Below are positions 6,421 to 22,299 of a stretch of 48,648 nt of DNA, piece after piece; positions within the stretch are counted from its first letter, which is position 1; each line of letters opens with the position of its first letter. A model generated the notes under the pieces. The model had not been told where the DNA came from, ran no database searches, and saw nothing but the letters and a program-made list of their open reading frames with translations. The stretch lies in assembly GCA_017453565.1 (NCBI GenBank), contig JAFTEQ010000006.1:1-48648 (forward strand), written 5' to 3'. The position numbers were made by a program, and so were the translations under genes. The stretch comes from Bacteroidales bacterium (lineage in GTDB: Bacteria > Bacteroidota > Bacteroidia > Bacteroidales > UBA932).

Positions 6421-9400
6421 TTATTGCAACTTTCTCAAGAGGGCGAGCGCCGCATCGAGGGTTTCGACCCCCCGGCACACGAGTTTAAGCTTGCTTTCGC
6501 TCTGTTTGAGGGCGAAGGTGCCCGGTTCCTGCGTCACCCGGGCAAGCACCCGGTTGAAGGTGTCCGACTTGTAATAGGCCGAGATGGGATTGGACAGGAA
6601 GAAGGCGATGAACAGGCCGTTCTTGACAATGATCTTCTCGAAACCGAGCGCCGCCCCGGCGTTGCGCAGCCGCACCACGGTAAAGAGGTTGGAGAGTTCC
6701 GGGGGCAGTTTTCCGAAACGGTCGGCAATCTGTGTGGCCAGACGGTCGAGTTCGCGGTCGGAGGTCAGCGAATCGAGTTGCTTGTAGATGCGGATCTTTT
6801 CGGCCGTGATGTCGAGGTAATCGTCGGGAATGAGCGCCTGCTGGTCGGTCTCGATGGTGCAGTCCTCGGTGTAGGCGCTCCTGCCGCCCCGGCCCGAGGT
6901 CCCCGTCTCCACCCCGAGTTCCTCCATGGCCTCGGAGAGGATCTTCTGGTATGTCTCGTAGCCCATTTCGGTAATGAATCCGCTCTGCTCGGCCCCCAGC
7001 AGGTTGCCGGCGCCCCGGATGTCGAGGTCCTGCATGGCGATGTTGAATCCGCTGCCCAGGTCGGAGAACTCCTCTATGGCGCGCAGGCGCCGCCGTGCGT
7101 CGTCGGTGATGGAGATGAGCGGCGGCACGATGAGATAGCAGAAGGCCTTCCGGTTGGAACGGCCCACCCGTCCGCGCAGCTGATGCAGGTCGCTCAGGCC
7201 GATGTTCTGCGCCTGGTTGATGATGATGGTGTTGGCGTTGGGGATGTCGAGTCCGTTCTCGATGATGGTGGTGCAGAGCAGCAGGTCGTAGTCGCCCCGC
7301 ATGAAGTCGAGTACCCTGTTCTCCAGTTCCTTCGACTCCATCTGCCCGTGCGCCACACAGATGCGCATGTCGGGGATGAGCCGGTGCAGGATTTCCTCGA
7401 TGGCGGGCAGTTCCTCCACCTTGTTGTGCAGGAAAAATACCTGTCCGCCGCGGTTCAGCTCGTAATTCACGATGCTGCGGATCTCCCGCTCGTCGAAGAG
7501 GATGATCTCGGTCTGGACGGGGATGCGGTTGGGCGGCGGCGTGTTGATGATACTGAGGTCGCGCGCTCCGAGCAGCGAGAACTGCAGGGTGCGCGGGATG
7601 GGGGTGGCGGTGAGGGTGAGGGTATCCACGCCGGTGCGCAGCTGCCGTAGTTTCTCCTTGGCCGCCACGCCGAACTTCTGCTCCTCGTCTATGATAAGCA
7701 GGCCCAGGTCCTTGAATTCGAAGCCCGAGCCCAGGATTTTGTGCGTCCCTATCAGAATATCAATCTGCCCGGCGGCAAGGCGCTTCCTGATGTCGCCGAT
7801 TTCCTTTGCCGTGCGCAGTCGGCTCACGTATTCCACGCTGCAGGGGAAGTTTGCGAGACGGGCCGTGAAGGTATTGAAGTGCTGCAGGGCCAGGATGGTC
7901 GTGGGAACGAGGACCGCCACCTGCTTTCCGTCCGAAACGGCCTTGAACGCGGCGCGCACGGCTACCTCGGTCTTGCCGAAGCCCACGTCGCCGCAGATGA
8001 GGCGGTCCATGGGGCAGTTGTCCTCCATATCCTGTTTTACCGCCCGGGTCGCCGCTTCCTGGTCGGGCGTATCCTCATACATGAACGACGACTCCAGTTC
8101 GTCCTGCAGGTAACTGTCGGCCGAGAAGGCGAAACCCTTGGAAGCCTTGCGCTTGGCATACAGTTGGATGAGATCCTTGGCGATGTCCTTGACCTTGCTC
8201 TTGGCGCTGCTCTTGAGGGCCACCCAGGCCTTGGAGCCCAGTTTGTTGATTTTCGGGGCTTCGCCGTCCCGGGAACGGAAACGGGAAATCTTGTGCAGCG
8301 CGTGCACCGACACGAACACCACGTCGCCGTCCTTATAGGTGATTTTCACCACCTCCCGCACGCGGCCCTTGTCGTCGAACATCCGTACCAGGCCTCCGAA
8401 AACGCCCACGCCATGGTCGATGTGCACCACGTAGTCGCCTATATTGAAGGAGTTGAGGTCGTTGATGGTGAGTTGTTCACTCTTTTCCACGCTCCGCCTG
8501 ATACGCACCCGGTGGAAACGGTCGAAGACTTCATGATCGCTGTAGCAGCAGATCTTGTCTTCTGCATCCACAAAACCGTTGTGCAGGTTCTTTCCCTTGA
8601 TAAATTCGGGCATCAGCCCGCCTTCCTGGGCAAGGATGGAACGAAGACGCTCCAACTGCGCCTCTTTCTCACCGAACACGCAGACGCGGAATCCCTGTTC
8701 CAGACGCGTGCGGATATCGGCTTCCAACAGTTCGATGTTCTTGTTGAACGAGGGCTGGGGCGAGATGGAAAAACGCAGCGGTTCCTCGGGCCGGCCGGAA
8801 ACGGGGATTTCCAGGAATACCCGACGGAAACGGGAACAGGATTCGAACAGGGGATGCTCCTTATACAGATCGGACCCGTCGAGCCAGACCACCGTGTCGG
8901 CCGGCAGCAGGGAAAAGATTTCATCCCCATCCGAACAAGTGTCGGAAAAGAGGGAAGAAACAACTTCCATCCTATCTGTCTTCTCCTTGGAAATCTGCAT
9001 GTTGCAGTCGAAAATATGAATGCTCTCCAGTTCGTTTCCCCAGAAGGAAAGCCGGTAGGGTTCGTTGTTCGCGTAGGAGAAGATGTCGATGATCGATCCG
9101 CGCACGGCGTACTGCCCCGGCGCCGACACGAAGTCGGAGCGCTCAAACCCCTCCTCCTGCAGGATGGAGGTGATCCTGTCGAACGATATTTCCTCTCCCA
9201 CCGTGAGGCTGAGCACCGACGCGCGCAGGTTCTTCCCGGAAGGTATCCTTTCCTCCAGGGCTTCCGGCCAGCTGACCACGATGGACCGGGCGGCCTTGGA
9301 ATCCAGCAGACGGGAGATCGCCGCCGTCCGCTGCACGTTCAGCGACGACTTGTAATTGCTCCGCTCCACCCCTTTTCCCGTCGGCGGCAGGAAGAAGACT

Positions 9401-9606
9401 TCGTCCCCCTCCGTAAGATGGTAGAGGTCGGCCGCACAGTACTCCGCCGCCTCCCTGTCGGGCAGTACCACGAGGTGCACGCCGCTCCGGGCCGCCTGGG
9501 CCAGCACGAACCAGCGGGCCGACAGATAAAGTCCGTCACAGTACAGTTCCCGCTCCACTCCCAACCTTTCACACAAGCGGGCGGTAGTCTTGGTACTTAT
9601 CAACAT
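6421..9606 (-). CDS. mfd: transcription-repair coupling factor Mfd
   Basis: A 1061-residue Mfd: a DNA translocase that removes stalled RNA polymerase at lesions and recruits UvrA for nucleotide excision repair. Domains in order: UvrB-like N-terminal part (about 1-340), a CarD-like RNA-polymerase interaction domain starting near NIGDYVVHIDHG (388-399), and the RecG-like SF2 motor with Walker A CGDVGFGKT (538-546), DEEQ box (640-643), an SATPIPRTL-like motif III and QLRGRVGRS motif VI. A TRCF C-terminal domain closes it. Shorter than the 1148-residue E. coli protein, as usual for Bacteroidetes. It is divergent from ruvB across the candidate origin region. No clear -7 box is seen for it. Confidence 0.96.
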   Translation of the reverse strand: MLISTKTTARLCERLGVERELYCDGLYLSARWFVLAQAARSGVHLVVLPDREAAEYCAADLYHLTEGDEVFFLPPTGKGVERSNYKSSLNVQRTAAISRLLDSKAARSIVVSWPEALEERIPSGKNLRASVLSLTVGEEISFDRITSILQEEGFERSDFVSAPGQYAVRGSIIDIFSYANNEPYRLSFWGNELESIHIFDCNMQISKEKTDRMEVVSSLFSDTCSDGDEIFSLLPADTVVWLDGSDLYKEHPLFESCSRFRRVFLEIPVSGRPEEPLRFSISPQPSFNKNIELLEADIRTRLEQGFRVCVFGEKEAQLERLRSILAQEGGLMPEFIKGKNLHNGFVDAEDKICCYSDHEVFDRFHRVRIRRSVEKSEQLTINDLNSFNIGDYVVHIDHGVGVFGGLVRMFDDKGRVREVVKITYKDGDVVFVSVHALHKISRFRSRDGEAPKINKLGSKAWVALKSSAKSKVKDIAKDLIQLYAKRKASKGFAFSADSYLQDELESSFMYEDTPDQEAATRAVKQDMEDNCPMDRLICGDVGFGKTEVAVRAAFKAVSDGKQVAVLVPTTILALQHFNTFTARLANFPCSVEYVSRLRTAKEIGDIRKRLAAGQIDILIGTHKILGSGFEFKDLGLLIIDEEQKFGVAAKEKLRQLRTGVDTLTLTATPIPRTLQFSLLGARDLSIINTPPPNRIPVQTEIILFDEREIRSIVNYELNRGGQVFFLHNKVEELPAIEEILHRLIPDMRICVAHGQMESKELENRVLDFMRGDYDLLLCTTIIENGLDIPNANTIIINQAQNIGLSDLHQLRGRVGRSNRKAFCYLIVPPLISITDDARRRLRAIEEFSDLGSGFNIAMQDLDIRGAGNLLGAEQSGFITEMGYETYQKILSEAMEELGVETGTSGRGGRSAYTEDCTIETDQQALIPDDYLDITAEKIRIYKQLDSLTSDRELDRLATQIADRFGKLPPELSNLFTVVRLRNAGAALGFEKIIVKNGLFIAFFLSNPISAYYKSDTFNRVLARVTQEPGTFALKQSESKLKLVCRGVETLDAALALLRKLQ

Positions 9607-9630
9607 GAAGGGGCTTTTTTATTGTGAAAA

Positions 9631-9654
9631 CCTGTTTATAACCCTGTTCATAAG
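9631..9654. repeat. 12-bp tandem repeat, two copies
   Basis: CCTGTTTATAAC (9631-9642) followed directly by CCTGTTCATAAG (9643-9654), 10 of 12 identical. Each copy contains a DnaA-box-like 9-mer on the minus strand, placing the two boxes 12 bases apart in the same orientation. Confidence 0.75.
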
Positions 9655-9724
9655 CTTAGGATAACGCAAGCGCCGATTTTCCGGACAGATTATCAACAGC
9701 ATCATAAAAAGGAAACGGGGAGGA

Positions 9725-9791
9725 TTTCAACATATCTCAGAAGAAGGAAAGAATTGAGGCCCAGAGACTTCACCTACGTTTTCAACATATC
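9725..9791 (+). repeat. 12-bp direct repeat TTTCAACATATC, two copies
   Basis: Exact copies at 9725-9736 and 9780-9791, 55 bases apart. The second runs into CACA, giving the box-like ATATCCACA. They belong to the candidate origin region. Confidence 0.8.
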
Positions 9792-9831
9792 CACACAGGG
9801 AACAATAACAAAAGGAAAATATAAAAATTAC

Positions 9832-9839
9832 TATATTTG
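9832..9839 (+). promoter_or_regulatory. -7 promoter box for ruvB
   Basis: Perfect TATATTTG, 25 bases before the ruvB ATG, giving a leader of roughly 20 bases. No TTTG at the -33 distance; the upstream sequence is A-rich. Confidence 0.6.
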
Positions 9840-9864
9840 TATTTGTATTAAAAACGCACGAGCG

Positions 9865-10890
9865 ATGGAGGAATTCAATCCACGGGACATCTCCGAAGGC
9901 AAAGATAAGGATTTTGAGGGAATAATCCGCCCGCGCGAGCTGGAAGATTTCACGGGCCAGCGGGAAATCGTCTCGAACCTCGACGTCTACATTCAGGCGG
10001 CGAAACTACGGGGCGAGGCGCTCGACCATACCCTATTCCATGGCCCTCCCGGTCTGGGTAAGACCACGCTGGCGCACATCATCGCCGCCGAGATGGGGGT
10101 AGACATGAAAGTGACCTCCGGCCCGGTCCTCGCCCGCCCGGGCGATCTGGCCGGCCTGCTCACCTCCCTGCAGACCGGAGACGTACTCTTCATCGATGAG
10201 ATTCACCGGCTTCCCCCGGAAGTGGAGGAATATCTCTATTCCGCTATGGAAGACTATGTGATTGATATCATGATCGATAAGGGCCCCGGTGCCCGTTCCG
10301 TCCGGATCAATCTCAATCCCTTCACCCTGGTGGGGGCGACCACCCGCAGCGGCCTGCTGACCGCTCCCTTGCGGGAACGCTTCGGCATTACCTGTGCGCT
10401 GGAGTATTACGACACCGCCGATCTGGAAAAGATCGTGCGGCGCAGCGCCCGCATCCTGAAAGTGGAGATAGAGGATGATGCAGCCCACGAAATCGCCCTG
10501 CGCAGCCGGGGGACGCCCCGTATCTGCAACGGCCTGCTCCGGCGGGTACGCGACTTCGCACAGGTGCGCGGAAACGGGGTGGTAGACCTTGCCATTGCAC
10601 GTTTCGCCCTTGACAAACTGAAGATAGACACGCGCGGACTCGACAAGATCGACAACAACATCCTCCAGACCATCATCGCCAAATTCAAGGGCGGTCCGGT
10701 TGGGGCGAATACCATTTCTACCGCAATCGGCGAGGATCAGGGCACTTATGAGGAAGTGTATGAGCCGTTCCTCATCAAGGAAGGCTTTATCCTGCGCACC
10801 CAGCGGGGCCGAATCGCTACCGATCTGGCCTATGAACACCTGGGGTACGACCGGGCGGCCGCGCCCAAAGCACAGGGAGAATTGTTTTGA
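9865..10890 (+). CDS. ruvB: Holliday junction branch-migration helicase RuvB
   Basis: A 341-residue RuvB: the hexameric AAA+ motor that, with RuvA, drives branch migration of Holliday junctions. Seen: Walker A GPPGLGKT (60-67), Walker B with DEIH (111-114), sensor 1 GATTRSG, and the C-terminal winged-helix domain ending in QRGRIAT. The ATG at 9865 gives the standard N-terminus and standard length (E. coli 336). An in-frame TTG at 9754 would add 37 implausible residues that also cross the promoter box. Its partner ruvA is 9 kb away on the other strand, so the ruvAB pair is split here. Confidence 0.96.
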
Positions 10891-10967: not shown

Positions 10968-12914
10968 ATGGCAGACAAACTCATCTCTAAGATTCCCGAC
11001 GGACCGCTTGCCGAAAAATGGACCAGGCGCAAGTCGGAGATTCATCTGGTAAGTCCCAACAACAAAAGAAAACTGGAAATCATTGTAGTAGGAACCGGGC
11101 TTGGCGGCGCTTCGGCAGCTGCGACGCTCGGTGAACTTGGCTATAATGTAAAGGTGTTCTGTATCAGCGACAGCCCCCGCCGGGCGCATTCCATTGCGGC
11201 CCAGGGTGGTATCAATGCCGCAAAGAACTACCAGAACGACAACGACTCCGTGTACCGCCTGTTCTACGACACCATTAAGGGCGGTGACTATCGTGCCCGC
11301 GAGGCTAACGTGTACCGCCTTGCCGAGGTGAGCGCGTCCATTATTGACCAGTGTGTGGCGCAGGGAATCCCCTTTGCCCGCGAGTATGGCGGATATCTGG
11401 CCAACCGTTCTTTCGGCGGTGTGCAGGTGAGCCGCACCTTCTATGCCCGCGGTCAAACCGGTCAGCAGCTCCTTCTGGGTGCGTATGCGGCCCTGAACCG
11501 TCAGGTGGCTGCCGGTACGGTACAAAGTTTCCCGCGGCACGAAATGCTCGACCTGGTGGTCATTAACGGGGAAGCCAAGGGTATCATCGCCCGCAACCTG
11601 GTGACCGGCCAACTGGAGCGTTTCGGCGCCCACGCCGTGATCATCGCCACGGGCGGATACGGAAATACCTATTTCCTATCTACCAACGCCATGAATAGCA
11701 ACGGCTCTGCGGCCATGCAGTGCTATCGCCGCGGCGCCTTCTTCGCCAATCCCTGCTTCGCGCAGATCCATCCCACCTGTATCCCGGTGCATGGCGACCA
11801 GCAGTGCAAACTCACCCTTATGAGCGAGTCCCTGCGTAACGACGGCCGTATCTGGGTGCCCAAGAAACTGGAAGACGTGGAGAAACTGCGCCGGCACGAG
11901 ATCACGCCCTCCCAGATTCCGGAGGAGGACCGCGACTACTATCTGGAGCGCCGTTATCCGGCCTTCGGCAACCTGGTCCCGCGCGACGTAGCCTCGCGTG
12001 CCGCTAAGGAGCGTTGCGATGCCGGTTTCGGGGTGAATGAGACGGGTAAGGCCGTGTTCCTCGACTTCTCCGACGCCATCGAGCGCCTGGGTCATCAGCG
12101 GGTAGCCGAGCGTTACGGTAACCTTTTTGATATGTATGAGAAGATCACCGCTTCCTCGCCCTGGAAAGAACCGATGATGATCTATCCCGCCATCCATTAC
12201 ACCATGGGCGGTATCTGGGTCGACTATGACCTGCAGACCACCATTCCGGGTCTCTATGCTATCGGTGAAGCCAATTTCTCCGACCACGGCGGAAACCGTC
12301 TGGGCGCTTCCGCCCTCATGCAGGGACTTGCCGACGGTTATTTCGTGGTACCGGTAACTATCGGAGACTATCTCTCCAAAAAGTTCGCCGAGCCCAAGAC
12401 CGATATCAGCGCGCCTGAGTTTGCGGCCGCAGAACGTGCGGTGCAGGCCCGTATCGACAGGTTGCTGGGTATTGGTGGTACTGAGACGGTGGATTCCATC
12501 CATAAGGAACTGGGTCATATCATGTGGAATTACGTGGGCATGGCACGTGATGCGGACGGTCTGAAGAAGGCCATTTCCGAAATCAAGGCGCTGCGCGAGA
12601 AATTCTATGCCAGCGTCCGTGTGCCCGGAACACAGTTCGAATTCAACCAGGAACTGGAGAAGGCTCTGAGACTCGAAGATTTCTTCGATATAGGAGAACT
12701 GATGGCCCGCGACGCGCTTGAGCGCGGCGAATCCTGCGGCGGTCATTTCCGTGTGGAAAGCCAGACCGAAGACGGTGAGGCCAAGCGTGACGACGAGCAC
12801 TACATGTATGTTTCTGCCTGGGAGTACAAGGGAGAAGGGAAGGAGCCGGAAATGCACAAGGAGCCGCTCAAATACGAGTTTATCAAGGTAGCCACCCGCA
12901 ACTATAAAGACTGA
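10968..12914 (+). CDS. frdA: fumarate reductase/succinate dehydrogenase flavoprotein subunit
   Basis: A 648-residue flavoprotein that interconverts fumarate and succinate; in Bacteroidetes it usually works as fumarate reductase in anaerobic energy metabolism (succinate production). Seen: the FAD-binding GTGLGG motif (42-47), the His of [11 protein letters not shown] (H74), the usual covalent FAD attachment residue, the substrate-site HPTCIP segment, and the [10 protein letters not shown] and [10 protein letters not shown] segments of the FAD domain. Length fits the Bacteroidetes/Chlorobi type (about 650) rather than the shorter E. coli enzymes. It is followed after 4 bases by frdB. The cytochrome b gene that normally precedes it is absent: only 77 bases separate it from ruvB. 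Confidence 0.95.
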
Positions 12915-16847: not shown

Positions 16848-17537
16848 TTAGCGGAGCTGGAAGATCACAGGGAAGGTGTAGGTAACCTTTACCGCGCGGT
16901 CACGCTGCTTGCCGGGTTTCCACTTGGGCGAGGAAGAAACCACGCGCACGGCCTCCTTGTCGAGGGTGGGGTCTACGCCGCGGAGCACCTTCACGTTGGT
17001 GACGGAGCCGTCGGGATTCACCGTAAACTGCAGCATTACGCGGCCCTGCACGCCGTTTTCCTTAGCGATTTCCGGGTAGACCAGACGTTCGTTCACCCAC
17101 TTGGAGAACGCGTTGGCGTCACCGCCCATAAAGGAGGGTTTCTCTTCCACCAACTGGAACGGGATGGCTTCTTCTTCCACCACCTCTTCCTTCACGGCTT
17201 CCACGTAGTCGATGATGTCGACACCCAGGTTGCCGCTGTCTTCCAGGTTGAGGATGTTGTCCTCGATCTTGAGGTCGTCATCCACAATGTCGATCTGGTC
17301 GGAAAGGATCGGAATCTTGGGGGTCTCGGGCGGCGGGGGAGGAGTTTCCTGGGTGATAGGAACCATCTCGTCCTCCACAATCTCCTGATTGTCAGCCTCG
17401 AGCGTGGAAATCTTGCGGTCCTTGGAGCTGTACTCGAATGCAAACAGGACCGCGGCGAGTGCCACGACGAAACCAATCTCCACAAAGAGCAGCCTCTTGT
17501 TCTCAAGACTGGCTTTCTCTGATTTCTTTACTTCCAT
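16848..17537 (-). CDS. tonB: TonB-family energy transducer
   Basis: A 229-residue TonB-like protein: couples the proton motive force of ExbBD to outer-membrane receptors. Seen: a short cytoplasmic tail, one transmembrane helix (FVEIGFVVALAAVLFAFEY), a Pro-rich stretch (TPPPPPETPKIP), an acidic spacer, and a C-terminal TonB domain with YPEIAKENGVQG, VNPDGSV and PKWKPGKQ motifs. The start at 17537 (MEVKKSEK) is preferred to the Met 33 bases upstream because it is the usual N-terminus of the family and leaves room for the promoter box at 17568. Many Bacteroidetes carry several TonB paralogues; no exbBD is nearby, so the partner is unknown. Confidence 0.88.
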   Translation of the reverse strand: MEVKKSEKASLENKRLLFVEIGFVVALAAVLFAFEYSSKDRKISTLEADNQEIVEDEMVPITQETPPPPPETPKIPILSDQIDIVDDDLKIEDNILNLEDSGNLGVDIIDYVEAVKEEVVEEEAIPFQLVEEKPSFMGGDANAFSKWVNERLVYPEIAKENGVQGRVMLQFTVNPDGSVTNVKVLRGVDPTLDKEAVRVVSSSPKWKPGKQRDRAVKVTYTFPVIFQLR

Positions 17538-17567
17538 ATCTTGTTTCTTGGTTTTCGATAATCGTTT

Positions 17568-17575
17568 CAAAGGTA
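17568..17575 (-). promoter_or_regulatory. -7 promoter box for tonB
   Basis: Perfect TACCTTTG on the minus strand, 30 bases before the tonB start. TTGG (3 of 4 matches to the -33 TTTG) lies 19 bases upstream at 17595-17598. Divergent from the ybeY promoter. Confidence 0.65.
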
Positions 17576-17615
17576 GAAATAATTAATATCAATTCCAATT
17601 TTTTAATTAAAGTTG

Positions 17616-17623
17616 TAGTTTTG
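17616..17623 (+). promoter_or_regulatory. -7 promoter box for ybeY-mnmG
   Basis: Perfect TAGTTTTG, 16 bases before the ybeY ATG, within a very AT-rich divergent gap. Confidence 0.65.
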
Positions 17624-17639
17624 CAGAAAGATTTTGCAG

Positions 17640-18068
17640 ATGGTAAAGTACTTCACCGAAGACGTCCGCTTCCCCTTCAAGAAGAAACTTCCCGTACGCC
17701 GCTGGCTCCGTTTCGTGGCCGAGAGCGAGGTGCGGCGGCTGGGCGCGGTGAACATTATCTTCTGCTCCGACCACTACCTGCTCGACATGAATGTGAAGTA
17801 TCTCGGACACGATTATTTCACCGATATCATTACCTTCGACTATTGCGAAGGCAAGGTCCTGTCGGGCGATTTATTCATCAGCATCGACTCGGTGCGTGAG
17901 AATGCGGCGCACTACGGCGCCAGCTTCGAGGACGAACTCGACCGGGTCATCGTGCACGGTCTTCTGCACCTGATTGGCTACGACGACCACACTCCGGAAG
18001 AGCAGAGCCAGATGCGCGCCAAGGAAAACTACTACCTGTCGCTCCGGCCGGTGGTCTTCACCGACTAG
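17640..18068 (+). CDS. ybeY: rRNA maturation endoribonuclease YbeY
   Basis: A 142-residue YbeY: zinc-dependent RNase needed for 16S rRNA 3'-end maturation and ribosome quality control. The signature [12 protein letters not shown] supplies the three metal-binding His residues, preceded by a TDIITFDY strand. The length is typical. ATG at 17640 is preferred to a TTG two codons earlier. mnmG starts 4 bases after the stop, so the two are co-transcribed. Confidence 0.93.
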
Positions 18069-18072
18069 ACCG

Positions 18073-19932
18073 ATGCAGGGAAAGTACGATATCATTGTGG
18101 TGGGCGGCGGACATGCCGGTTGCGAGGCCGCAGCGGCGGCCGCACGCCTGGGTTCGTCGGTCCTTTTAATTACGATGGACCTCAGGGGCCTTGCCCGCAT
18201 GTCGTGCAACCCGGCTGTAGGAGGAATTGCTAAAGGGCAGATTGTCAGGGAGATAGATGCGCTTGGCGGTTGCTCTGCCCGCATTACCGACGCCTGTACG
18301 CTGCAGTTCCGCATGCTCAACAGGTCCAAGGGACCGGCCATGTGGAGCCCCCGCGCACAGTGCGATAAAAGGGCGTATTCCGCGTTCTGGCGCAAGGAAC
18401 TCGAAAGTCTCTCTAACTTAGATATTTACGAAGATTCTGCGCTTTCTTTCCTCTTTGAGAATTCAAAAATCGCGGGCGTCCTGACCCGTACCGGGGCGAT
18501 TTTTCATGCTCGCGCCGTTATTCTTACCGCCGGGACCTTCCTTGGAGGCCGGCTTTTCATTGGAAAGCACAGTTTCGAAGGCGGGCGCATCGGCGAGCCG
18601 GCTTCGCTCGGACTCAGCGAACAGCTTGCCGAACGGGGGATCGCCACCGGTCGGATGAAGACCGGCACCCCGCCCAGGATCGACATCGCCTCGGTCGACC
18701 TTTCCCGTCTCGGCGTTCAGGAGGGAGACCCCGACCCCGACCGTTTTTCCTTCCTGCCGGTTCCGTCCTCGGTTCAGGGTTCGGGCGAACAGATGGTCTG
18801 CTACACGCTGCACACCAATGAGCGGGTTCACGAAATCCTTCGCTCCGGTTTTTCGGAGTCGCCCATGTTTTCCGGGAAGATTCGGGGACGGGGACCGCGC
18901 TACTGCCCCAGCATTGAGGACAAACTCCGTGTCTTTCCCGACAACCCGGCGCATCTCCTGTTCCTGGAGCCCGAGGGGCGCGACATCAGGGAATACTATC
19001 TCCAGGGCTTTTCCTCCTCGTTACCGCTGCAGGTCCAGCTGGACGCCCTGCACGCCATCGAGGGCCTGGAGCAGGTGAAGATCTACAAGCCCGCCTATGC
19101 GGTGGAGTACGACTATTTCGACCCGTCTCAGCTGCACGCCACGCTGGAGTCGAAGATTGTGGAAGGGCTGTATCTGGCCGGGCAGGTGAACGGAACCACG
19201 GGCTACGAAGAGGCGGCCGCGCAGGGACTGATGGCCGGCATCAACGCGCACCTGCGACTGAAAGGAAAGGATCCCTTCGTCCTGCGCCGCGACGAGTCGT
19301 ACATTGGGGTGCTTATCGACGACCTGGTGACCAAAGGCGTGGACGAGCCGTACCGCATGTTTACCTCGCGCGCCGAATTCCGCATCCTGCTGCGCCAGGA
19401 CAATGCCGACCAGCGCCTGACGCCCAAGGGGCACGAGTTGGGCCTGGCGAACGAGGACCGTTATGCGCTCACGCTGCGCAAATACGAGGCGGTGGATGAA
19501 CTCACGCGCTATTGCGACACGCACAACCTGACGCCGGCGCAGGTCAACGAATACCTGGCGTCGTGCGGCTCCGCGGCCTTGGAAGAATCGAAAAAGATAT
19601 CCGAGGTGGCCCTCCGCCCGGAGCTGGATCTGGGGGCGTTGTTGCAATTGGTTCCACGTGGAACAGAGGACCGGAAGGTTGTGGAGTCGGTGGAGATTAC
19701 CCTGAAGTACCGGGGCTACATTGACCGGGAACGGCGCATGGCCGAGAAGATTCTTCGCCTCGAAGATTTCCGGATTCCCGAGTCGTTCGACTTTGACAAG
19801 CTATCGGGCCTCACCATCGAGTGCCGACAGAAATTAAAGAAATACGCGCCGCGGACCATTGCCCAGGCGTCGCGCATTTCGGGCGTTTCGCCCGCGGATA
19901 TTTCCGTTATGCTGGTCTATTTTGGCCGTTGA
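18073..19932 (+). CDS. mnmG: tRNA uridine-5-carboxymethylaminomethyl modification enzyme MnmG
   Basis: A 619-residue MnmG (GidA): with MnmE it installs the carboxymethylaminomethyl group on wobble U34 of several tRNAs, using FAD and methylene-tetrahydrofolate. Seen: FAD-binding [12 protein letters not shown] at the N-terminus, [11 protein letters not shown], the YFDP and [16 protein letters not shown] segments, and the C-terminal helical domain contacting MnmE and tRNA. The ATG at 18073 gives the normal N-terminus; an in-frame ATG at 17974 lies inside ybeY. A parS-like palindrome (19650-19665) lies within the coding sequence. In many bacteria this gene is close to oriC. mnmE is not in the window. 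Confidence 0.95.
19650..19665. promoter_or_regulatory. parS-like ParB-binding site inside mnmG
   Basis: GGTTCCACGTGGAACA: a 14-bp perfect palindrome GTTCCACGTGGAAC (19651-19664), matching the widespread parS pattern TGTTnCACGTGnAACA except at the first base. It lies in the mnmG reading frame. Confidence 0.7.
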
Positions 19933-19944
19933 GTGAAAGCGGCG

Positions 19945-19960
19945 TGTTCCACGTGGAACA
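19945..19960. promoter_or_regulatory. parS-like ParB-binding site between mnmG and ruvA
   Basis: TGTTCCACGTGGAACA, a perfect 16-bp palindrome fitting the parS pattern TGTTnCACGTGnAACA fully. It fills half of the 32-base gap between the convergent mnmG and ruvA stops and is 295 bases from the other copy. Confidence 0.85.
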
Positions 19961-19964
19961 GGCA

Positions 19965-20558
19965 CTAAAGCATCGACAGCGCGATTTTGATAATCTCTTC
20001 CACTTTTGCTGTGGGATTCTCGCGGAGGATGTTCTGAATGGCCTTATTGATGTTGGGCCGTGCAAATCCGAGCATCTGGAGGGCCGAGGCCGCCTCTTCC
20101 GCCGCATCGCTGCTGCTACCCTGAAACAGCGCTTCGCTCCCGGCACCAGCTCCTTTCACAATCTTGTCCTTAAGTTCGAGGATCATTCGTTGTGCCGTTT
20201 TAAGGCCGATGCCTTTGATGGATTTGAGTCGTGCCAGATTTTCGGAAAGGATGGCGTCGCGCAGTTCGTCGGCCGAGAGCGACGAGAGAATCATACGCGC
20301 CGAGGCGGCGCCCATTCCGGACACTCCGGTGATGAGGCAGAAGAGTTCGCGCTCTTCCTTGGAAGCGAAGCCGTACGATACTTCCGTGCCGTCGCGCTGG
20401 TTGACCTGGCGCTGCACATAGAGTGTGGCATCGCTCACTTTCTCCAAACGCGTGTAGGTCTGGAGCGAAATCTCCAGCCCGTAGCCGATGCCCTGGTTCT
20501 CCACCACCACGCGTGTGGGGCTGAGTTCGGCAATCTTTCCTTTGATATAATCGATCAT
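19965..20558 (-). CDS. ruvA: Holliday junction DNA-binding protein RuvA
   Basis: A 197-residue RuvA: a tetramer that clamps the four-way junction and loads RuvB. Seen: the N-terminal OB-fold (MIDYIKGKIAEL through about residue 65), the tandem helix-hairpin-helix region with LITGVSGMGAASA and LKSIKGIGLKTAQRMI, and a C-terminal three-helix domain (from about 150) that contacts RuvB. The length is normal. The promoter box lies so close to the start that the mRNA would be almost leaderless. It converges on mnmG. Confidence 0.95.
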   Translation of the reverse strand: MIDYIKGKIAELSPTRVVVENQGIGYGLEISLQTYTRLEKVSDATLYVQRQVNQRDGTEVSYGFASKEERELFCLITGVSGMGAASARMILSSLSADELRDAILSENLARLKSIKGIGLKTAQRMILELKDKIVKGAGAGSEALFQGSSSDAAEEAASALQMLGFARPNINKAIQNILRENPTAKVEEIIKIALSML

Positions 20559-20586: not shown

Positions 20587-20594
20587 TAATTTCG
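20587..20594 (+). promoter_or_regulatory. probable -7 box for sufS operon
   Basis: TAATTTCG, one mismatch from TAnnTTTG, 32 bases before the sufS ATG. Divergent from the ruvA box 12 bases away. Confidence 0.45.
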
Positions 20595-20626
20595 TGGTCC
20601 CGATTGAACAGGCAAAAGAGTATCCC

Positions 20627-21883
20627 ATGACGCTGGAGCAGGCGAGAAAGCGTTTCCCGCAACTGGAGGAAACGGTCTATGGAAAGCCGCTGGTCTATCT
20701 TGACCATGCGGCCACTTCGCTTCGTCCGCTGGAGGTCGTTCGTTGCTGGGAAGAAGTGTCTTTTCGGAAGAACGCCAACCTGCATCGCGCCGTGCACTAC
20801 ATGGCCCAGCAGGCCACCGCAGCCTTTGAAGAAGCCCGGGCCACCGTTGCTTCGTTCCTTGGCGCCGCCTCTCCGCGCGAGATCGTGTTCACTCCCGGCG
20901 CTACAGCCGCAGCAAACCTGCTGGCCACTTGCCTGGGACAATCCCGTATTGAAGGCGGTCACCGTGTTGCGGAGCCGTATATCGGCGCGGGCGACTGCCT
21001 CCTTGTGGCTGAAAGCGAACACCACTCCAACCTTGTCCCCTGGCAGATGTTGTGTGAACGTACGGGAGCCCGCTTGGTGGTCCTTCCCGTCGAAGAAGAC
21101 GGCAGCTACAACCTCACGCGTCTGGAGGAAGCTCTGAAGGCAGCCCCGAAGCTGTTCTGTATTGCGCACATTTCCAATGTGTTAGGCCTAATTAATCCCA
21201 TTGCGGAGATGGCCGCCCTTTGCCACCGCGCGGGCTGTCGCGTCGTGGTAGACGGCGCGCAGGGCATCGTGCATGCGGATGTGAATGTGTGCGAGATGGG
21301 GGCGGACTACTACTTCTTCTCGGGCCACAAGATCTATGCGGCTCCGGGAACGGGCGTGCTCTGGGCGCGCGCGGAATTGCTGGACGAACTGCCTCCCTAT
21401 ATGGGTGGCGGCGAGATGATCGACCACGTGCGTTGGGAGGGCTCAACCTGGGCCGAACCCCCGTACCGTTTCGAAGCCGGCACGCAGAATCTTTCTGGCG
21501 TGCCCACCCTGGTTCCCGCCCTGCGCCTGTTGCAGGAGCTCCGGGGCCCGGAAATGCTGGCGAACGCGCTGGCTGTGCGCGATTATGTGTGGGAGCAACT
21601 GCTTGCCATACAGGGACTTCGGCTTTACGGAAATCCTTCCGACCGGAGCCTGAAAGTCCCCATTTTCTCCTTCTCCATAGAAGGCGTGCACCATGAGGAC
21701 CTGGCCCTGCTGCTCGACAAGATGGGCGTTGCCGTCCGCTCCGGCCAGATGTGTGCCGAGCCGCTGATGGGCCGCATTGGCGTGACGGGCATGGTGCGCG
21801 CCTCGTTCGCGCCTTTCAACACCCTGCAGGAGGCAGAAACCTTTATCAAGAGCCTTCACAAGGCCATAGGAATGTTGCGCTGA
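20627..21883 (+). CDS. sufS: cysteine desulfurase SufS
   Basis: A 418-residue PLP enzyme that takes sulfur from cysteine as a persulfide for Fe-S cluster assembly. Seen: the PLP-stacking His in AESEHHSN (about 132), the Schiff-base Lys in SGHKIYAAPGTG (K235), and the active-site Cys in RSGQMCAEPL (C376) followed by RASF. These are SufS (type II) rather than IscS features. The ATG at 20627 is preferred to a GTG at 20594 that overlaps the promoter box. sufE follows with a TGATG stop/start overlap. The SufBCD scaffold is not next to it. Confidence 0.93.
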   Translation: MTLEQARKRFPQLEETVYGKPLVYLDHAATSLRPLEVVRCWEEVSFRKNANLHRAVHYMAQQATAAFEEARATVASFLGAASPREIVFTPGATAAANLLATCLGQSRIEGGHRVAEPYIGAGDCLLVAESEHHSNLVPWQMLCERTGARLVVLPVEEDGSYNLTRLEEALKAAPKLFCIAHISNVLGLINPIAEMAALCHRAGCRVVVDGAQGIVHADVNVCEMGADYYFFSGHKIYAAPGTGVLWARAELLDELPPYMGGGEMIDHVRWEGSTWAEPPYRFEAGTQNLSGVPTLVPALRLLQELRGPEMLANALAVRDYVWEQLLAIQGLRLYGNPSDRSLKVPIFSFSIEGVHHEDLALLLDKMGVAVRSGQMCAEPLMGRIGVTGMVRASFAPFNTLQEAETFIKSLHKAIGMLR

Positions 21884-22299
21884 TGGATAGTCTGGAAGAA
21901 GCAAAAGCCGCCGTTGTCGAGCAGTTCTCCCTGTTCGACGAGTGGCTCGACAAATACGAATACCTCATTGAACTGGGCAAGGACCTGGAAGCGTTCCCCG
22001 TGGAACATAAGACCGACGAACACCTTATCGAAGGCTGTCAGTCGCGGGTCTGGCTCGATACGGAGCTGCGCGACGGCCGCCTCTATTTCCGGGCCGACAG
22101 CGACGCCATCATCACAAAGGGCATCATCTCCCTCCTCATCGGGGTGTACTCGGGCCGTCGGCCGGAGGAAATCGCCTCCGACGATTTCTCGTTCGTAGAA
22201 GCCATCGGTCTGCGCGAGAACCTCTCGCCCACGCGGGCGAACGGACTCTCGTCGATGATTGCCCGTATCCGTGCGGAAGCGAAGGCACAAATGAGTTAA
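21883..22299 (+). CDS. sufE: sulfur acceptor protein SufE
   Basis: A 138-residue SufE: accepts the persulfide from SufS and passes it to the Fe-S scaffold. The active-site Cys is in IEGCQSRVW (C52), the family signature. The start is the ATG overlapping the sufS stop (TGATG), so the two subunits of one sulfur-transfer unit are translationally coupled. sufT follows after 4 bases. The reading frame is open further upstream, but only within sufS. Confidence 0.93.
   Translation: MDSLEEAKAAVVEQFSLFDEWLDKYEYLIELGKDLEAFPVEHKTDEHLIEGCQSRVWLDTELRDGRLYFRADSDAIITKGIISLLIGVYSGRRPEEIASDDFSFVEAIGLRENLSPTRANGLSSMIARIRAEAKAQMS

Follow-up and report, generated by a model that had tools for sequence, protein, structure and literature searches.

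Predicted parS-type centromere sites in and beside mnmG of a Bacteroidales bacterium

We analysed a stretch of 48,648 nucleotides from a Bacteroidales bacterium (contig JAFTEQ010000006.1), referred to here at its full length as the window. The gene of interest is mnmG (gidA; 18073..19932, + strand; TIGR00136, E 2.1e-240). Downstream of it lies ruvA on the - strand (19965..20558; TIGR00084, E 2.5e-52), followed on the + strand by a sufS family cysteine desulfurase gene (20594..21883; TIGR01979, E 9.3e-134, with 446.2 bits below the curated cut-off of 475.1) and a sufE-like gene (21883-22299, below the curated cut-off of its model). A search against Rfam returned one tRNA alone. An AT-rich segment (30-40% GC) is found at 17500-17699, around the gap upstream of ybeY.

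Two parS-like sites are present at mnmG. Site 1 (GGTTCCACGTGGAACA, one mismatch; 19650..19665) lies inside the gene, where it runs from the third base of codon 526 through codon 531 (codons 527-531 are GTT CCA CGT GGA ACA, encoding the peptide VPRGT). Site 2 (19945..19960) is a perfect copy of TGTTCCACGTGGAACA in the 32-bp gap between the convergent mnmG and ruvA genes. The original prediction had named this perfect copy and a one-mismatch copy 295 bp away from it, and our search confirmed both coordinates and the spacing. When compared with the 16-bp palindrome TGTTYCACGTGRAACA, one site matched exactly and the other with one mismatch. A doubtful third copy (CGTTCCCCGTGGAACA, two mismatches; 21992..22007), absent from the original prediction, is located inside sufE. 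The GC skew within the window showed no clear switch at the sites.

The motif proved to be rare. With one mismatch or fewer, the window contained two matches, whereas 100 dinucleotide shuffles averaged 0.00. When two mismatches were allowed, three places were found in the whole assembly (sites 1 and 2 and 21992-22007), all within 2.4 kb of one another in the window, as anticipated from a genome-wide search for a few copies; the assembly comprises 1,949,615 bases in 80 contigs and is 76.5% complete, and further copies may lie in the absent part. The reversed pattern, used as a control, matched the same assembly once. At three mismatches or fewer the chance mean was 1.11, and three matches were reached by 11 of 100 shuffles. 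Because chance matches arise at such looser thresholds, the copy at 21992-22007 stays doubtful; among 27 genomes, only that of the window carries a site at this position of sufE.

We searched 61 genomes of relatives for the same motif. A site with at most one mismatch to TGTTCCACGTGGAACA was found in 36 of them and none at that threshold in the other 25, and the reversed control matched in 1 of 61. The locus was returned for 29 of those relatives, and mnmG was present in every one. A set of 53 genomes with mnmG was then assembled from the genus (32) and the order (21). One or more sites with no more than two mismatches were located in mnmG or within 400 bp of it in 50 of the 53; two of the remaining three (G002 and G052) have an mnmG that breaks off short of its 3' end, and the third (G037) is without a site. 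Of the genus genomes, 31 extend over the 3' part of mnmG, and in 30 of these the internal copy is present, always in the same phase, at codon 526 or codon 527. The single exception, G025, is without the motif and its reading frame is open. The downstream copy, counted when it had two mismatches or fewer and lay no more than 100 bp past the mnmG stop codon, was found in 20 of the same 31; in G027 it lies at 380 bp. A parS-like site was also found in sufS in 10 of 27 genus genomes, the window being counted among the 27 and itself having none, at codons 330-341 where the position was computed. For G010, sufS was not found in its stretch.

The original prediction took the position of one copy within a coding sequence as a sign of selection. 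Coding location by itself is no evidence of this, but codon usage at site 1 does show selection. Among the 29 full-length genus genes, the genomes that carry the majority residue use GTT in 28 of 28, CCA in 28 of 28, CGT in 23 of 23 and GGA in 26 of 26, and the fifth codon, for T, is ACA in 22 and ACT in 5 of 27. For comparison, the mean share of the top codon over 208 conserved V, P, R, G, T, A, L or S columns is 0.44, and one column elsewhere in mnmG is equally frozen (L116, TTA 25/25, within a second conserved patch described below). Third-base conservation over the five codons from 527 is 0.95, the maximum in the gene, where the mean is 0.52 with a standard deviation of 0.10. Since the third-position GC of the genus genes ranges from 0.31 to 0.74, a common base composition does not explain the frozen codons. 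The frozen synonymous codons at site 1 therefore indicate that selection acts on the DNA and that the site is conserved among relatives at this level. In the predicted MnmG model the segment is part of a loop at 525-533 (pLDDT ∼76-81), and in the 20 order-level proteins aligned it is variable and the VPRGT motif is absent.

The tie between mnmG and parS was also found across Bacteroidota. In the best 80 of 583 named mnmG loci, fetched with up to 4 kb of DNA on each side, a TGTTYCACGTGRAACA site with at most one mismatch was present in 67, compared with 0 of 80 in the reversed sequences; 13 had no site at that threshold within the fetched flanks. Judged by record title, the sites of Bacteroidales lie mostly just downstream of mnmG, and those of other orders lie upstream or on both sides, in several orders 22-140 bp upstream. 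We also examined 158 genomes drawn phylum-wide, all at least 99% complete except that of the window. An exact site was found in 118 and none in 40, and the reversed pattern was found in 1 of 158; the genomes in which exact copies occurred had one to five each. Among the 75 exact sites listed (43 genomes), 71 (39 genomes) lie no more than 1 kb from mnmG, with a median of 30 bp. The other four of these listed sites lie away from mnmG, three on other contigs and one at 25.5 kb. Two loci, one of Cryomorphaceae (L147) and one of Flavobacteriales (L196) by title, have a site inside mnmG at codons 489-492, apparently independent of the copy in this genus, and in L169 a parS-like site lies at mnmG codon 227.

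The presence of parA and parB, proposed as a check of the original prediction, was borne out by a pair of adjacent genes on contig 69. ParB (308 aa; 11096-12022, - strand) matched TIGR00180 over its cut-off (E 5.1e-53), and the gene for a ParA-like ATPase (258 aa; 12019-12795, - strand) overlaps it end to start. The ATPase did not reach the cut-off of any NCBIfam model; its name comes from superfamily hits below their cut-offs and from its position beside parB. No second ParB was found in the assembly. We had considered a parAB pair adjoining the sites, which was rejected because the pair sits on this other contig. The best-scoring NCBIfam model for ParB was Noc, yet the score was 224.7 bits against a cut-off of 315. 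When the protein was aligned to a Noc chain (7nfu), R and G stood opposite Q and R of Noc; the choice between parS and the Noc-binding site (NBS) is set by these two residues, according to the portion of PMC7383237 available to us. With R and G rather than Q and R, and with the Noc model below its cut-off, an NBS was rejected as the identity of the sites. Among another 20 ParB loci, 19 also have R and G, and the remaining one (G036) gave no match in the motif search. The genome thus encodes a ParA-like protein together with a ParB that has the specificity residues of the parS type.

We sampled the GC skew in five single-contig relatives, one of the same family (G303) and two of the same order (G271 and G298) with 20 samples each, and G191 and G114 with 10 samples each, and applied two fits with different arm ranges. 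The distance from mnmG to the best switch from negative to positive skew, as a share of the genome, was 0.7%, 3.6% and 0.2% in G303, G271 and G298, respectively, and 5.2%, 0.1% and 3.7% when wider arm ratios were allowed. In G191 the distance was 2.8%. In G114, with its 10 samples, the skew optimum was 12.9% from mnmG, 8.7% from dnaA and ∼12.6% from parB. Permutations reached the observed fit in 1, 0, 1, 2 and 3 of 100 trials for G303, G271, G298, G191 and G114. Coding-strand bias, a weaker fit, placed the switch 4.5%, 3.8% and 18.7% from mnmG in G303, G271 and G298. In the same five relatives, again in the order G303, G271, G298, G191 and G114, mnmG is separated from parB by 669, 54, 1657, 838 and 885 kb and from dnaA by 1026, 1207, 2343, 1700 and 749 kb. 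Over seven single-contig relatives the distance between parB and mnmG ranges from 54 kb to 1.66 Mb. A second, weaker match to the ParB family is present in G191. The claim that the sites are origin-proximal agrees with the sampled skew in four of the five relatives (0.1-5.2% from mnmG, both fits) and with a predicted oriC ∼10 kb off; G114, where the distance is 12.9% and dnaA is nearer, gives a less clear picture. In the accessible text of a Hi-C study (PMC10197239), parS clusters lie at the origin in the strains studied, two of them Bacteroidetes, and the origin is not always at dnaA; this support is only partly independent, because parS helped to choose the origins there.

The predicted oriC (9597..9864) is the divergent gap between mfd (6421-9606, - strand) and ruvB (9865-10890, + strand), both identified with Pfam. 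The gap itself, 9607-9864, is ∼10 kb from the parS-like sites. Four of the six DnaA-box-like TTATNNACA matches in the window lie here, at 9597, 9633, 9645 and 9690, and a 50-bp stretch of 12% GC lies at 9804. One-mismatch matches to TTATCCACA numbered ten in the window, compared with a shuffle mean of 4.6 and with none of 100 shuffles reaching ten; three of the ten lie at 9597-9795. Since TTATNNACA was chosen after this stretch of the window had been seen, only the relatives provide a test of it. Upstream stretches were obtained for 14 genus genomes, of which 10 have the mfd-ruvB pair and 3 do not, that of G008 being too short. Boxes occurred in the gap in all 10 relatives with the pair, with a total of 29 (25-bp margin) against an expectation of 0.60 derived from the remainder of the stretches. 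When boxes overlapping the start of mfd were excluded, because the protein may fix them, 19 remained in the 10 genomes, with at least one in each. Every relative's gap has a 50-bp stretch of 6-18% GC; because the gap is AT-rich, the chance rate of boxes is raised to ∼0.1 per gap by a hand estimate. In G303, five boxes lie in the mfd-ruvB gap, at the skew switch and ∼16 kb from its parS-like sites, and no mfd-ruvB pair was found within the 20 kb at mnmG in G271 and G298. These sequence patterns suggest that the gap at 9607-9864 is likely the oriC, the alternative being a regulatory region.

Explanations other than parS were weighed against these results. Site 2 could be a bidirectional transcription terminator whose palindrome folds as an RNA hairpin between mnmG and ruvA. 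Its place in the 32-bp gap between convergent genes agrees with this, as does the predicted folding of the site 2 strand into a hairpin with a stem of 6 bp and the loop ACGU (-6.3 kcal/mol for the site by itself, -13.0 when its flanks are included). However, no T run follows the site on either strand, as an intrinsic terminator would have, and the same 16 bp occur inside mnmG and sufS and, in other orders, upstream of mnmG. In addition, the letters of the loop vary no more than those of the stem, a comparison in which the choice of sites at two mismatches or fewer favours invariance. We therefore regard a terminator as very improbable.

It is slightly less probable still that the in-gene copy is kept for a role of the VPRGT peptide in MnmG rather than for DNA binding. 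The peptide is found in 21 of the 29 full-length genus proteins and 7 more differ by one or two residues, but the motif is missing from G025, where the frame is open, the segment is variable and without the motif in the order-level proteins and forms a loop in the model, and its third-base conservation exceeds that of every other five-codon stretch of the gene. The least credible of the three explanations is that a different transcription factor uses the palindrome as its operator and that the likeness to parS is accidental. Palindromes of 16 bp are typical of operators, and the sites that lie shortly upstream of mnmG in several orders would suit this role. However, the TGTTTCACGTGAAACA form common in the relatives is the parS consensus used in PMC10197239, as far as its accessible text goes, and the few exact copies per genome occur upstream of, downstream of or inside the gene, so no single operator role fits.

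We believe that the two sites, perhaps with the third, very probably constitute the chromosomal parS centromere of a ParABS system, origin-proximal, anchored at mnmG and predicted to bind ParB. The reading of the motif as parS in the original prediction is supported by its sequence, rarity, clustering and conservation, by selection at the DNA level, by the parS-type ParB and by the sampled skew in relatives. By analogy with known ParABS systems, from which binding, spreading and segregation are inferred, the ParB encoded by the parAB pair, at another place on the chromosome, would load at each of the 16-bp palindromes. Once loaded, it would bind CTP and slide, spreading into kilobases of adjacent DNA, and ParA would then separate the newly copied origin regions. 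The cluster would sit at mnmG because this gene is close to the origin of replication, for which the mfd-ruvB gap, 10 kb off, is the probable candidate.

Clusters of gidA-gidB-parA-parB at the origin occur in other phyla. The present arrangement resembles them in bringing mnmG (gidA), parS and the probable origin together, and differs in that mnmG and parS stay together, with parB and dnaA at other places in those relatives for which distances were measured. Chromosomal ParABS systems with parS TGTTTCACGTGAAACA are described for Bacillus subtilis, Caulobacter and others in the available part of PMC7333895. The sites described here share with them the 16-bp palindrome family, the few clustered copies, the parS-type ParB beside a ParA-like ATPase and, in four of the five relatives sampled for skew, the apparent proximity to the origin; they differ in that parB is away from mnmG, here and in the seven single-contig relatives, and in having one copy within mnmG, at codons that are fixed. 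For Bacteroides caecimuris and Muribaculum intestinale, parS clusters were placed at an origin that had been chosen from skew and parS (PMC10197239, in part). These too are Bacteroidales parS clusters with an origin not always at dnaA; they differ in that neither mnmG nor an in-gene copy is named in the portion of that paper available. By title and the start of the abstract, no paper searched ties parS to mnmG/gidA in Bacteroidota; Livny 2007, the main survey of parS, may already describe such a tie. The type of site is known, and the apparent novelty, within the literature searched and seen in part, lies in how lastingly it is tied to mnmG across the phylum and in the fixed in-gene copy.

A broader reading, which we consider rather doubtful, is that mnmG is a lasting centromere address in Bacteroidota, where selection held parS in place as parAB and dnaA moved. 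Under the same reading parS would have been written into coding sequence more than once (at mnmG codon 526 in this genus, at codons 489-492 in two other loci and in sufS), making one stretch both protein-coding and centromere, the origin of the genus would be the mfd-ruvB gap, and ParB at mnmG might tune the gene or its dosage. For practical use, the results suggest that in uncultured Bacteroidota the origin region could be recognised from sequence alone by mnmG and its parS, and within this genus by the mfd-ruvB gap as well. The gene often used for rotating genomes is dnaA. Because dnaA is 0.75 to 2.3 Mb from mnmG in the five relatives measured, genome rotation and origin-based estimates of growth rate in such genomes could use mnmG. 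The in-gene copy is also a clean natural case of one sequence with two codes, in which the DNA code fixes the synonymous sites.

Some minor features of the sites and of mnmG were also observed. In G016 (L066) the internal and downstream sites share a change from CACGTG to CACATG. A concerted change of both sites was rejected as a general rule, since G003 and G013 have CACATG in one copy only, and no change matching CACATG was found in the ParB segment. Eight of the 29 full-length genus MnmG proteins (L072 to L079) have in-frame insertions of ∼75-90 residues soon after the parS-coded segment, past codon 531; in G030 (L070) the insertion there is ∼35 residues. A second patch conserved at the nucleotide level in the genus spans mnmG codons 109-133 (18397-18471 in the window). 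It reads TTAnnnATTTAC ... CTCTTTGAGAATnnAAAAATC, is AT-rich even in GC-rich genomes, was not seen in the other families aligned, and may represent a promoter, RNA element or protein site; its core occurs once in the assembly.
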